Part shown: piece by piece, positions 41,984 to 46,883 of the stretch
Layout: every line of letters begins with the position of its first letter
Numbering within the stretch: the first letter of the stretch is position 1
DNA from: Bacillota bacterium
Lineage (GTDB): Bacteria; Bacillota_E; JAJZYS01; JAJYTV01
Length of the DNA: 64,000 bases
NCBI GenBank assembly: GCA_021845645.1
Contig: JAJZVM010000019.1
Span: 8,819-72,818, forward strand
Reading direction: 5' to 3'
Notes under the pieces: generated by a model
The model's input: only the letters and a program-made list of their open reading frames with translations
Told to the model about the DNA's origin: nothing
Databases searched by the model: none
Made by a program: the position numbers and the translations under genes

Positions 41984-42081
41984 TTCTCTCATCCCTCAGC
42001 AGTGCTGCAGGGTTTGGCACCGTGGCAAACGCCCGGTTGCCGGGTTTCATCGGGCCAGCCCCTCCACCACTCGCGATGAGC
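41984..42081 (-). promoter_or_regulatory. SAM-I (S-box) riboswitch aptamer
   Basis: The minus strand shows the conserved S-box elements in order: CTCATCGCGAG, GGTGGAGGGG, GGCCCGATGAAACCCGGCAA, GGTGCCAAACCCTGC and the closing GATGAGAG. SAM binding should stabilise the anti-antiterminator and switch off metK. Confidence 0.9.
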
Positions 42082-42105
42082 ATATTCGATTTTTTGGCGA
42101 GGATC

Positions 42106-43761: not shown

Positions 43762-43986
43762 TTAGAGCGTGCGTTCGAGGAACTTGCGGCGCGTCGCCTC
43801 GCCACCGCGGATGTGACGCTCGGCCTTGTTGTGCTCGAGCACGGTCTTCACCTGCCGCGCGAGCTGCGGGTTGATGCGCGGCAGGCGCTCCGTGACATCC
43901 TTGTGGACCGTACTCTTGGAGACTCCGAACCGATGCGCGGTATCCCGTACCGTGTCCTGCGTCGCGAGGATGTAGTCCGCGACCTC
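43762..43986 (-). pseudogene. spoIIID: spoIIID, 3' segment (codons 11-84), separated from its start by a recombinase element
   Basis: SpoIIID is a small DNA-binding regulator that activates sigK and tunes sigma-E genes in the mother cell. This segment encodes EVADYILATQDTVRD, the recognition helix FGVSKSTVHKDVTERLP, and the tail NKAERHIRGGEATRRKFLERTL. That is the whole protein except the first ten residues. In frame upstream it runs into the recombinase C-terminal region in another frame; the only near start is GTG 43989, without a Shine-Dalgarno and missing helix 1. The missing start lies at 46081 on the other side of a 2,065-bp element. As it stands the gene is broken; after precise excision it would read as one 84-residue protein. 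Labelled pseudogene only in the sense of being interrupted. Confidence 0.9.
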
Positions 43987-44008
43987 CACCGCACACTTAC
44001 TTGCCAGA
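43967..44008 (-). other. right junction (attR-like) of the spoIIID element
   Basis: The core GA lies at 43986-43985. On the element side the sequence reads GTCTGGCAAGTAAG then TGTGCGGTG. On the host side spoIIID continues with GGTCGCGGAC. The recombinase stop codon (43999-43997) lies inside the element arm. Confidence 0.75.
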
Positions 44009-45358
44009 CGCGCCGGCGCAGCCCGACGCCGGCGTTTCGAGGCGGATCTCCACCGTTGCGGGGCCAAGCACGACCGTGACGCCAAGGCCGCGGAGGACCT
44101 CGCGTCGCCCACGGGGACCCGCCTGGCGCAGGTACTCTCGCGCGGCTGCGCCGTCTTCACGGCACGCGTGGCGGGAGGGCTCGAGATCGAGCGCCGCCAG
44201 CCTGCCGCCGAGCTGGTCGAGGGCCAGGGCGAGATCCTCCGGCGACAGGCGGCCTGCGGCTCCCGCCTGCACGAGCCGCCGACGTCGCGCTTCAAGCCGC
44301 CGCCGGTCCCTTGCGATGGCACCTTCCGACCAAGCCTCCACCTCCGGTGCATCATGCCTGGCCGCAACTTCGAGCGCCGCCACCACGCGGGCCCAGACGG
44401 CCGCTTCCAGAGCCTCCGCCGGATAGTACGGCGCGGGACACGGCGGCCTCCCCCGCTTGCCCGCGCACGCGTAATAGGGGCGGCTGCCTCCGCTGCCGGT
44501 CACCCTGCGTCCGCAGAGGGCGCAGCGCGCCACGCCGCTCAGGAGGTACGTGCGCCCATGGCCCTCGGGGCGCCTGCGCCGCGCCGTGAGCGCTGCGCCC
44601 GCAGTGGCGAACGTCTCATGGCCCACGAGAGGAGGCATGGCGATGCTGCCCTGTCCGCGCAGTTGCGCCATCTCGCCAAGGTACGTGGGGTTGCGCAGGA
44701 TGCCATAGACCGCAGACTGCGAAAACGCTCCGCCGCCCTTGGCATGCAGGCCCGCGGCGTTGAGCGCGTCGGCGATGGCCTGCGTCGACATCCGAGGTGC
44801 CATCGCGAAGATCGCCCGCACGATGGCCGCCTCGGCCACGTCCACCAGGAATCCCTTGCGCCGACGGTCGTACACGTAGCCGAGGATCTGTGTCCCCGTC
44901 ACCGCCTTGCCTTCGCGCAGGCGCTGCTGCTTGCCCTGGCGCGTCCGCTCGCGGATCTTGTGTGCCTCGAACTCCGCAATCGCGCCGCGGATGGCGTAGA
45001 GCAGCCTGCCGTCGGGCGTGGGTCGGCGTTCGAACTGTACAAAATGCAATTCGACGCCGATGCCTTCGAGCTGGTCCGTGATGATGAGCTGGTGGCTGAG
45101 GTTGCGCGCCAGGCGGTCAGGATCGAGGCAGGCGACACCTGCGATCTCGTGTGCACTGGCCGCGGCGAGCAGGGCCTGCAGACCCGGCCGCGAGATGTCG
45201 GTTCCCGAGATCCCCGCGTCGACGAAAGCGCGGATCTCCGTCGCGCCAAGCTTCTCGGCAAGCCTGCGGCACATCTCGGCCTGTCCTTCAAGCGAGGTGC
45301 CATGCTGGGCCTGCTCCTCCGTCGACACCCGCGCATAGATCGCGAAACAGCGGCTCAT
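43997..45358 (-). CDS. large serine recombinase (SpoIVCA/integrase type)
   Basis: The 453 residues contain a resolvase domain with the catalytic Ser12 (YARVSTEEQ), the active-site arginines (DPDRLARN), helix E (AEFEAHKIRERT), a recombinase domain (about 155-260; YGILRNPTYLGEMAQL), a zinc ribbon (Cys279, Cys282, Cys298, Cys307) and a short coiled-coil-like tail. The size is close to SpoIVCA, the sigK skin recombinase. All catalytic features are intact, so it should be active. It starts at ATG 45358, overlapping the stop of the 30-codon ORF (ATGA). Its 3' end lies 11 nt from the element's right core. It needs a directionality factor or a special expression context to excise. Confidence 0.96.
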   Translation of the reverse strand: MSRCFAIYARVSTEEQAQHGTSLEGQAEMCRRLAEKLGATEIRAFVDAGISGTDISRPGLQALLAAASAHEIAGVACLDPDRLARNLSHQLIITDQLEGIGVELHFVQFERRPTPDGRLLYAIRGAIAEFEAHKIRERTRQGKQQRLREGKAVTGTQILGYVYDRRRKGFLVDVAEAAIVRAIFAMAPRMSTQAIADALNAAGLHAKGGGAFSQSAVYGILRNPTYLGEMAQLRGQGSIAMPPLVGHETFATAGAALTARRRRPEGHGRTYLLSGVARCALCGRRVTGSGGSRPYYACAGKRGRPPCPAPYYPAEALEAAVWARVVAALEVAARHDAPEVEAWSEGAIARDRRRLEARRRRLVQAGAAGRLSPEDLALALDQLGGRLAALDLEPSRHACREDGAAAREYLRQAGPRGRREVLRGLGVTVVLGPATVEIRLETPASGCAGASGK

Positions 45359-45447
45359 CTGAGCTTCCCCTGGCGGCGCAGCTGCTCCAGCAGCGTTTGC
45401 CATGCCTGCTGCCATTCACGCTCGGACACATCCACCCGGATCTCCAT
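45355..45447 (-). CDS. 30-residue ORF coupled to the recombinase
   Basis: ATG 45447 sits 6 nt after GGAGGG. The product is MEIRVDVSEREWQQAWQTLL followed by EQLRRQGKLR, a single amphipathic helix. Its TGA overlaps the recombinase ATG (ATGA), so ribosomes that finish it would start the recombinase. It could be just a translational coupler, or a tiny recombination directionality factor. It is too short for homology to be judged by eye. Confidence 0.6.
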   Translation of the reverse strand: MEIRVDVSEREWQQAWQTLLEQLRRQGKLR

Positions 45448-45477
45448 CTGGATCCCTCCTATCCAGTGGACCGGGAC

Positions 45478-45485
45478 AGTCTATG
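45478..45485 (-). promoter_or_regulatory. sigma-E-like -10 upstream of the recombinase transcript
   Basis: CATAGACT matches the sigma-E -10 consensus CATACAMT at seven of eight positions. It is 30 nt before the ATG of the coupled ORF, an ideal place for a promoter. The -35 region is poor (GCAAGGA). No sigma-A promoter is obvious here. Confidence 0.35.
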
Positions 45486-45958
45486 TGGACGTGCCCTCAT
45501 CCTTGCGTTGGGCGACGCGGTACCATCGGCCCCGCGTCGACGGGACCATTCGGCACTATCGAGCCGAGCAGCCCGTTGCGCATCATGAACATAGGCCGCG
45601 GACCATCCCCACGCGTTGAGGATGGCGTTTATCGGGAGGCGTCCCGTTGGCCTGCGCCGATCGTCTGCACCGTTGTCGTCTGACATCTCCTGTCCGACGA
45701 CGGGCGCGGACCCGGACACTCGGTCGCAGGCATCGGTAGACGCACCGCGCACCTCGGGCGCATACGACCGCGGCATCATCGCATCGAGGGCGTCGGGCTC
45801 ACGCGCGGCTTCAGCGCACGCACCGCTCAGCCAAAGCTCCCCCTGGCGAACGGCACACGGCGAGATCAGCCGTCAAGATGACACCGATTGCGCGGCCGCC
45901 GGCCACTTGCCGGCGCTCCCCCGAATGCGGCGCGGGCACGCAGTTGCCCGCCGTGAAG

Positions 45959-45991
45959 ACAGCACCCGAAACATCTGTGTTCGGGTGCTGT
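45959..45991. terminator. 12-bp hairpin inside the spoIIID element
   Basis: ACAGCACCCGAA (45959-45970) pairs with TTCGGGTGCTGT (45980-45991), with a 9-nt loop. It lies about 60-90 nt downstream of the left junction in the direction of spoIIID. It could stop transcription that enters from the spoIIQ/spoIIID side. No U-tract. Confidence 0.45.
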
Positions 45992-46032
45992 TTGGTCGCT
46001 GCCATTGGATAGCTTTCACGCGGCTTGCCTTG

Positions 46033-46064
46033 CAGGTAAGCGGGCGTCGTCGAGCGCCCGCTTC
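46033..46064 (-). other. left junction (attL-like) of the spoIIID element
   Basis: Host side AAGCGGGCGCTC, core GA (46051-46050), element side CGACGCCCGCTTACCTGC. AAGCGGGCG and CGCCCGCTT form a perfect 9-bp dyad around the core. Confidence 0.75.
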
Positions 46065-46081
46065 CAGATGTGGTCCTTCAC
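46050..46081 (-). pseudogene. spoIIID: spoIIID, 5' segment (start codon to codon 10)
   Basis: GTG 46081 is preceded by GAGGAAGGGG with 8-9 nt spacing and encodes MKDHIWKRAL, the canonical SpoIIID N-terminus (compare MHDYIKERTIKI of Bacillus and MKDYI-type in Clostridia). After codon 10 the frame runs into element sequence and stops after 21 residues. It is placed 46 nt after the spoIIQ-like gene. Joined to the 3' segment at the GA core, it gives MKDHIWKRALEVADYI with Tyr15-Ile16 exactly where the family has them. Confidence 0.88.
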
Positions 46082-46127
46082 CGCATCCGGCCCCTTCCTC
46101 GGCAACATTCGCGCCATACTTATGCGG

Positions 46128-46883
46128 TCAGCCCTGCCGCGATGCGCCTGCCGTGGTCTTCGGCAGCATGGTGGCAGGATTTACGGGCTGTCCCGCGCGC
46201 TTGATGGAGAAGCCCAGGCGCCCGATGCTGCCGCCGCCCGCTGCCTGAAGGGAACCGATCGTCTCTCCCTGTCCGACCGGGCTCCCGACCGCGATCTGCG
46301 TCGAAGCGAGGCCTGTGTAGGTCGCGATCACGTTCTGCGGTGAACGCACAACCACCGTGAAGCCGCCCGAGGCTTCCCGCTCCACGGCCTCTACGCTGCC
46401 CGGCAGGGCTGCGCGCACCGCCGAGCCGGACTTTGCCTCGATCTCCCAGCCCGTGTGATAGAACCAGTAGCCTCCGGTGGGGTCGAAGACCCAGCCGTAC
46501 CCCATGGCGACGCGTCCATGCAGCGGCCAGACCGCGGTGGCCGGCAGGGTGGTGGCCAGCGCCGGAGTGGCTGGCGCGCCCGCGGAGGTTCGGGGGGCAG
46601 GTGGCGCAGCATGCGTCTGAGCCGCCTGGTTCGCGAGGGCCTGCGCGACAGCCGACTTCCGGACGTTGGACAACATGCGCGCCTGCTCAAGCTGACCCGA
46701 CGGGCTGAGCGGCGGCGACACTGGTCCCGCCTGCCCGTTCGAAAGAACCGTGACGACCGCGATCAGCGCGACGAGGACCGCGGCGCTCCAGATCAGGGGC
46801 TCGCGGCGGACGGCGGCAACAGCTCTGCGCTGCAGCCGGCCGATGGCGCGATAAGCGTTGCGGAGACGATCGGTCAAGTCCAA
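46128..46883 (-). CDS. spoIIQ: SpoIIQ-like membrane-anchored degenerate LytM protein
   Basis: The 251 residues have a cytosolic N-terminus, one membrane helix (about 32-48), an Ala/Pro-rich linker and a C-terminal LytM (M23) domain. The first zinc motif reads HTGWE instead of HxxxD, and the final HxH is lost (RLGFSIKRAG), so peptidase activity is unlikely. SpoIIQ works in the forespore membrane, binding SpoIIIAH during engulfment. The position just before spoIIID supports the call. Start TTG 46883 lacks a close SD; the exact start is uncertain. Confidence 0.75.
   Translation of the reverse strand: MDLTDRLRNAYRAIGRLQRRAVAAVRREPLIWSAAVLVALIAVVTVLSNGQAGPVSPPLSPSGQLEQARMLSNVRKSAVAQALANQAAQTHAAPPAPRTSAGAPATPALATTLPATAVWPLHGRVAMGYGWVFDPTGGYWFYHTGWEIEAKSGSAVRAALPGSVEAVEREASGGFTVVVRSPQNVIATYTGLASTQIAVGSPVGQGETIGSLQAAGGGSIGRLGFSIKRAGQPVNPATMLPKTTAGASRQG

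Follow-up and report, generated by a model that had tools for sequence, protein, structure and literature searches.

Intervening elements that interrupt sporulation genes have been published for sigK, spsM, spoVFB, spoVR, gerE and yabG, in the parts of the literature drawn on here (PMC5595907, PMC10747680, PMC4191935, PMC5025042, PMC6957869). The skin elements of sigK in Bacillus subtilis and Clostridioides difficile carry a large serine recombinase (LSR) and split the gene of a mother-cell regulator; skin is cut out in the terminal mother cell, and the forespore copy is kept (PMC5025042, PMC6957869). Here we describe a 2,065-bp LSR element that splits spoIIID at codon 11 in a 64,000-nucleotide stretch of a Bacillota bacterium genome (contig JAJZVM010000019.1; the whole stretch is called the window). 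In kind it belongs with skin, but its target gene is new; its content is close to minimal, and it is passed on largely by descent. Literature searches, which covered published open-licence papers, found no intervening element in spoIIID, and a preliminary description of this DNA likewise named no such case.

Relative to skin, the target here acts before sigK, the element is about 2 kb long and no phage gene is recognised in it. The gin element of gerE in Bacillus cereus ATCC10987 is likewise non-phage, likewise interrupts a small mother-cell transcription-factor gene and likewise combines an LSR with a tiny directionality factor (GirC, and GirX of 42 amino acids); as given in the portion of the source used, it occurs in some strains, is 28.6 kb long and has 31 genes, with three LSRs (PMC5595907), whereas the spoIIID element has one LSR and one microprotein and is present in every genome examined of one family. 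The yin element of yabG in Clostridium botulinum V73 is also an LSR element in a sporulation gene, with a restored gene and a circle, but in the part of the account considered it is prophage-like, is known from one strain and has another target (PMC10747680). Similarly, vfbin (spoVFB), vrin (spoVR) and SP-beta (spsM) are recombinase-borne and sit in mother-cell genes but, in the sections of the source used, carry phage-related genes and occupy other targets (PMC4191935).

We consider it likely, with a probability of roughly 0.8, that the 2,065-bp element is removed from the mother-cell chromosome during sporulation. If so, a gene rearrangement gates an early mother-cell regulator, the cases described in the papers drawn on here being sigK and later or structural genes. 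Skin excision requires SpoIIID in both B. subtilis and C. difficile, according to the part of the account consulted (PMC5025042), so the spoIIID element must fire without SpoIIID. Its carriage largely by descent contrasts with sporadic presence among strains, and its two-gene content approaches that of a minimal self-excising device, in which control of LSR direction could be tested with one recombinase and a 30-residue peptide. Further, a genome with spoIVA can be without an uninterrupted spoIIID frame, a point of importance when the ability to sporulate is predicted from genome sequences.

The interrupted spoIIID gene

Read along the minus strand, an M23 peptidase gene is followed by the first part of spoIIID, then by the element, the remainder of spoIIID and mreB (Table 1). 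The M23 peptidase gene is SpoIIQ-like by a weak NCBIfam score that lies under that model's cut-off. One GA dinucleotide follows codon 10 of spoIIID and a second GA opens the stretch that reads EVADYI and continues to the stop, the distance from GA to GA being 2,065 bp. By itself the 3′ part, a remainder of 75 amino acids, scores 124.6 bits with TIGR02844, above the cut-off, in a match that starts at position 9 of the 80 in the profile, and 125.4 bits with the Pfam SpoIIID family; its DNA is up to 96% identical across four genomes. Coordinates and Pfam and TIGR02844 matches thus agree with the original proposal of a spoIIID gene split by a 2,065-bp insert with a large serine recombinase. That proposal gave the 5′ fragment as nine codons plus a Shine-Dalgarno sequence; the Shine-Dalgarno sequence stands, and the count is corrected to ten codons, codon 10 being Leu, with the crossover within codon 11.

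The element contains a gene for a 453-amino-acid LSR, co-directional with spoIIID, a 30-codon open reading frame (ORF) and about 466 nt of conserved noncoding DNA. The recombinase has Resolvase, Recombinase and zinc-ribbon domains, three Pfam families over gathering score; its best match among solved structures is the TP901-1 integrase catalytic domain, and a YARVS-type catalytic motif is present in 16 of 16 aligned rows that include the N terminus (12 by script, 4 by reading). Neither PHROGs nor Pfam matched any of five further frames that lie within the element or overlap it, and no phage structural or replication gene was recognised, consistent with the earlier statement that phage genes are absent. 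The same two databases gave no recognisable cargo gene in the window's copy, and no relative of the LSR was confirmed in a viral contig collection queried with six sequence patterns.

Table 1. Features of the spoIIID locus, in window coordinates
Feature	Position	Strand	Details
Sigma-E-like spoIIID promoter	46116..46145	-	-35 GCATCGC (46145-46139), 14 nt, -10 from CATA (46124)
spoIIID 5′ fragment	46052..46081	-	GTG start at 46081; ten codons, VKDHIWKRAL; Shine-Dalgarno GAGGAAGGGG upstream
attL (left attachment site)	46024..46077	-	B arm in spoIIID codons 2-10; crossover GA 46051-46050; P arm within element
Conserved noncoding segment, possibly structured RNA or regulatory region	45486..45951	-	83–91% mean identity over four genomes; invariant blocks in eight
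Sigma-E-like recombinase-operon promoter	45478..45506	-	GCAAGGA, 14 nt, CATAGACT
Microprotein, 30 amino acids	45355..45447	-	MEIRVDVSEREWQQAWQTLLEQLRRQGKLR; strong Shine-Dalgarno; stop overlaps recombinase start
Large serine recombinase, 453 amino acids	43997..45358	-	Pfam PF00239, PF07508, PF13408
attR (right attachment site)	43959..44012	-	P′ arm within element; crossover GA 43986-43985; B′ arm in spoIIID
spoIIID 3′ fragment	43762..43986	-	Codon 11 to stop; TIGR02844 from profile position 9

Attachment sites and the predicted joined gene

Several lines of evidence bear on whether the element can leave the gene. First, attL and attR have a common GA core with inverted-repeat arms, as in skin-type elements. 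The 26-base arm to the left of GA at attR was scored, at 17 offsets, for agreement with the reverse-complemented 26-base arm to the right of GA at attL, in 13 genomes that have both ends and that are related, hence not independent. In the window, 17 of 26 bases agree, the best among the 17 offsets; the zero-offset scores of the 13 genomes are 17, 17, 14, 12, 12, 14, 14, 16, 16, 16, 11, 18 and 17, and zero offset, which is centred on GA, is best in every genome, by one base in three. As background, other stretches of an element score about 7 on average in the seven elements used for this purpose, and the proportion that score as high as observed is 0.02% to 2.9%. The crossover is thereby placed at the shared GA, as first proposed from the window alone, narrowly so in those three genomes. 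The letters of the arms vary between lineages while the palindrome persists, which argues that the att sites are still in use; inverted-repeat arms with lineage-specific letters are the mark of an LSR attP site, here a predicted one.

Second, joining at GA gives the in-frame sequence VKDHIWKR[AV]LE[VI][AG]DYI in all seven elements joined by script, and the intact spoIIID genes of two relatives, G015 and G069, run straight through the junction point. The intact proteins of these two and of the public entries P0003, P0005 and P0006 read [MV]KDHIWKR[AV][IL] with E or D as the next residue, at the junction, so that the joined sequence predicted in the preliminary description is found in relatives. 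Public entries P0001, P0002, P0004, P0007 and P0117 have unrelated N termini, as expected from gene callers acting on interrupted copies.

Third, the start codon and ten in-frame codons are retained in all 15 of the 5′ fragments. Of 20 genomes searched, 16 contain the 5′-fragment pattern a single time, in G015 and G069 as part of the intact gene, and it was not found in the other four (G008, G009, G066 and G067). As to a second intact spoIIID, which the preliminary description had named as a possible objection, each of 14 interrupted relatives has exactly one SpoIIID match in its incomplete assembly, a count made on relatives of the window; no match was found in G004 and G071, where the 3′ end falls off the contig.

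The same fragments could be read without any excision, translation restarting at an ATG or GTG at the junction to give SpoIIID minus ten residues as the last product of a recombinase operon. An ATG or GTG is the codon directly before the junction in 12 of 15 3′ fragments, which weakens the split-gene reading and leaves some chance that the 3′ segment is complete by itself, as the preliminary description had envisaged; the recombinase stop just upstream in the window would permit translational coupling, and the 75-residue remainder passes the TIGR02844 cut-off. However, no start codon exists in the open frame upstream of the junction in G005, nor within 21 codons in G006, as the split-gene reading would have it, and the junction ATG and GTG codons have, by reading, no clear Shine-Dalgarno sequence. 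The survival of the start and ten in-frame codons in every 5′ fragment and the persistence of palindromic attP arms would be left unexplained, and in G011, whose recombinase runs the opposite way, there is no recombinase–spoIIID operon. We regard restart as improbable.

Distribution and descent of the element

A scan of genome contigs with the M23 protein led to three loci from metagenome-assembled genomes, all with the insert and with about 80% identical DNA through it; two are recorded as 'Bacillota bacterium' and one as 'Clostridia bacterium'. In the family of the close relative G002 (family 1), the insert is present in all ten genomes examined: nine have a SpoIIID match, each starting at profile position 4–8, and in the tenth, G004, the 5′ fragment and the recombinase lie where a contig ends. 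SpoIIID is matched in 11 of 15 genomes of the order, ten of them without the N terminus and one (G015) intact, and in 128 of 154 genomes of the class. A second lineage of five genomes has related inserts after the same codon; G068, G070, G072 and G073 match from position 6–8, with the 5′ fragment located elsewhere, and G071 has the 5′ fragment and recombinase only. The carriers thus number 17, the window and 16 genomes. In nine of the 17 (the window, G001, G002, G003, G006, G010, G011, G070 and G072) a single contig holds both ends, in four (G005, G007, G068 and G073) the ends are on two contigs, and four (G004, G008, G009 and G071) lack one end. Contigs end inside or beside the element in these last eight of the 16 carrier genomes; a mixture of excised and unexcised DNA may be the cause, or merely difficulty in assembly.

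The 17 spoIIID-linked recombinases form one clade with 100/99 support, and the 14 other LSR loci of the class used in the tree all fall outside it; in the class search, the spoIIID-linked LSRs have E ≤ 2.0e-79 and the next best 1.9e-60. A FastTree phylogeny with 59 public homologues added, rooted at the midpoint, places 49 of these and none of the 14 other-site LSRs in the clade that spans the 17 (support 0.85); only recombinases of known genomic site are counted here as spoIIID-linked, which sets the 49 apart. For the seven family-1 genomes in both trees (the window, G004, G008 and G009 are absent from the rpoB tree), the recombinase tree follows rpoB except in how G005, G006 and G007 are ordered, an arrangement with weak support. 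Between the window and its five nearest full-length orthologues (G001, G002, G003, G010 and G009), the ratio of nonsynonymous to synonymous substitution rates (dN/dS) is 0.14–0.20, a rough value because synonymous sites are near saturation; by this measure the recombinase is under purifying selection.

Part of this distribution would also be expected of a common mobile element with spoIIID as attachment site that, free of developmental control, excises at a low level in growth and is tolerated as a parasite. G015, and G069, which the rpoB tree places with modest support among second-lineage carriers, are close to carriers and have an intact spoIIID, so loss of the element, or failure to gain it, does happen. 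The element of G011 is 1,747 bp long at the same codon with its recombinase reversed; this recombinase groups with the second lineage (100/96), in conflict with the host tree, in which G011 groups next to G015 and family 1, so transfer occurs, and the element was probably acquired separately. In the second lineage, the two elements whose ends share a contig measure about 4.9 and 7.4 kb and have other ORFs inside, and yin was excised at all time points in the portion of that study used (PMC10747680). By contrast, the family-1 insert is in every genome examined and largely follows descent, the window's copy has no recognised cargo, and a sigma-E-like promoter precedes the recombinase operon; we judge a tolerated parasite to be unlikely.

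The ORFs in the longer second-lineage inserts (L056 1756–3834 (+) and L059 6968–8989 (−)) look like other genes, by reading only. Also by reading, insert frames of G072 are epimerase-like and nucleotidyltransferase-like, and insert frames of G070 are transporter-like.

Alternatively, the element might be a decayed remnant and spoIIID a pseudogene that is no longer needed. The assemblies are incomplete, and neither SpoIIID nor SpoIVA is matched in three small genomes of the order, as such a reading would allow. It conflicts with the open reading frames in the window and close relatives, with the low dN/dS of the recombinase, with the near identity of the 3′ part across four genomes at a score above the family cut-off, and with spoIVA, which is matched in all 16 interrupted genomes (in G071 below the cut-off, the match being cut by the contig). 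Decay is very improbable.

Promoters, microprotein and a proposed order of events

The two promoter-like sites were labelled by their resemblance to the sigma-E consensus. The layout before spoIIID, a GCAT-like box, 13–15 nt and CATA about 40–70 nt before the gene, occurs in 18 of 31 intact loci of the class (the 30 best-scoring loci minus one that is too short, plus G015 and G069, the last without the layout), compared with 0.6% of mononucleotide shuffles. It also precedes 8 of the 12 interrupted 5′ fragments that were scanned, with all seven examined in family 1 (six of them scanned) and G011 having it. Within the element, a GCA-N-CATA site lies before the microprotein and recombinase genes in ten of ten family-1 loci with upstream sequence, the window included, and in G011; 3–9% of shuffles have one. 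This suggests that one sigma factor, most likely sigma-E, would read both promoters in family 1.

A small ORF ends at or shortly before the recombinase start in 15 of the 17 loci (G008 is cut off, and none was found in G070). It encodes 30 amino acids in family 1 and 54–65 elsewhere; the products share, by reading, a short strand and helix pattern, and a profile comparison between lineages aligned 23 columns with a probability of 58. The microprotein has no match in Pfam or PHROGs and is a candidate recombination directionality factor. GirX, the directionality factor of gin, has 42 amino acids in the part of the report used (PMC5595907), so a protein of about this size can serve in that role. 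Small ORFs also stand in this upstream place at several of the 14 other class LSRs, so the microprotein may belong to a wider accessory family. Small ORFs with Shine-Dalgarno-like boxes lie directly before other class LSR genes at L077, L080, L084, L086, L088 and L090.

We infer that excision occurs, in the mother cell and under sigma-E, and that the microprotein takes part in it. In the scheme that we find most likely, sigma-E would turn on the spoIIID promoter upstream of the element, and the sigma-E-type promoter within it would drive the microprotein and the recombinase. The recombinase, probably with the microprotein as directionality factor, would then pair attL and attR at GA, releasing the element as a circle with a palindromic attP and leaving an intact 84-codon spoIIID. 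The forespore would retain the element, which would thus be inherited.

The conserved noncoding segment allows a different mechanism, removal at the RNA level by a ribozyme. This segment of about 466 nt has 83–91% mean identity over four genomes, and its alignment over the window and seven other genomes has variable loops as well as invariant blocks. Compensatory changes occur at 29 of 104 predicted pairs, with 72 of 822 cells non-pairing, and the alifold z is −4.4 on one strand. On the opposite strand, however, z is −4.3 (134 column shuffles), nearly the same, so we do not claim an RNA. Against a ribozyme, Rfam searches of the window (gathering score) and of the loci of six relatives (E up to 1) gave no group I or II intron match, and the 1,747-bp element of G011 lies at the same codon without a match to the segment; DNA att palindromes and an LSR are maintained as well. 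We find a ribozyme scarcely credible. A DNA match to the segment occurs in 8 of the 154 class genomes, all of them element carriers, and no Rfam family covers it in the same searches.

Several observations weigh against excision in the mother cell, in addition to the junction start codons discussed above. The spoIIID promoter layout is found in only one of the five second-lineage loci and the recombinase-operon site upstream in none of the five, and the proposed timing of excision draws on promoter resemblance. The palindromes of G003, G010 and G070 are marginal, at 12, 12 and 11 compared with second-best scores of 11, 11 and 10. The dN/dS of the recombinase relative to the window rises to 0.26–0.30 in G006 and G007 and to 0.57 in G011, at saturated distances, and the recombinase match of G072 is reported with one internal TGA. 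No assembled excised form turned up, the 5′ fragment occurring at most once in each of the 20 genomes searched, and no read, junction contig or circle was seen. The eight nearest intact public SpoIIID proteins, from the best 120, are at most 86% identical to any interrupted one over the shared part, so none resembles the excised copy of a known carrier. The preliminary term 'skin-like' fits the element in kind, with excision as its predicted part.

A broader version of the excision reading has about even odds in our estimate: a domesticated excision switch, near-minimal in content (one LSR, one 30-residue microprotein and a sigma-E promoter of its own) and fixed in a whole lineage, would stand atop the mother-cell cascade, SpoIIID would work only after this element has excised itself, and in some relatives (G070 and G072) there would be two serial excisions, of spoIIID and then of sigK.

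In four genomes, G015, G069, G070 and G072, the match to sigK is broken around profile residue 112, its parts lying on separate contigs or next to another LSR, much as classical skin elements would split the gene. The LSRs beside the apparent breaks in G015 (L088) and G069 (L083) lie outside the spoIIID recombinase clade, a further difference between skin and the spoIIID element. G006 has, besides a full sigK-like copy, several partial ones, mostly of the C-terminal half, on contigs C9, C28, C43, C61 and C73.

The only Rfam matches in the searches described above were S-adenosylmethionine (SAM) riboswitches and two weak eukaryotic families. The SAM riboswitch of the window, at 41986–42082 (−) with 78.7 bits, precedes an ORF that reads as S-adenosylmethionine synthetase.

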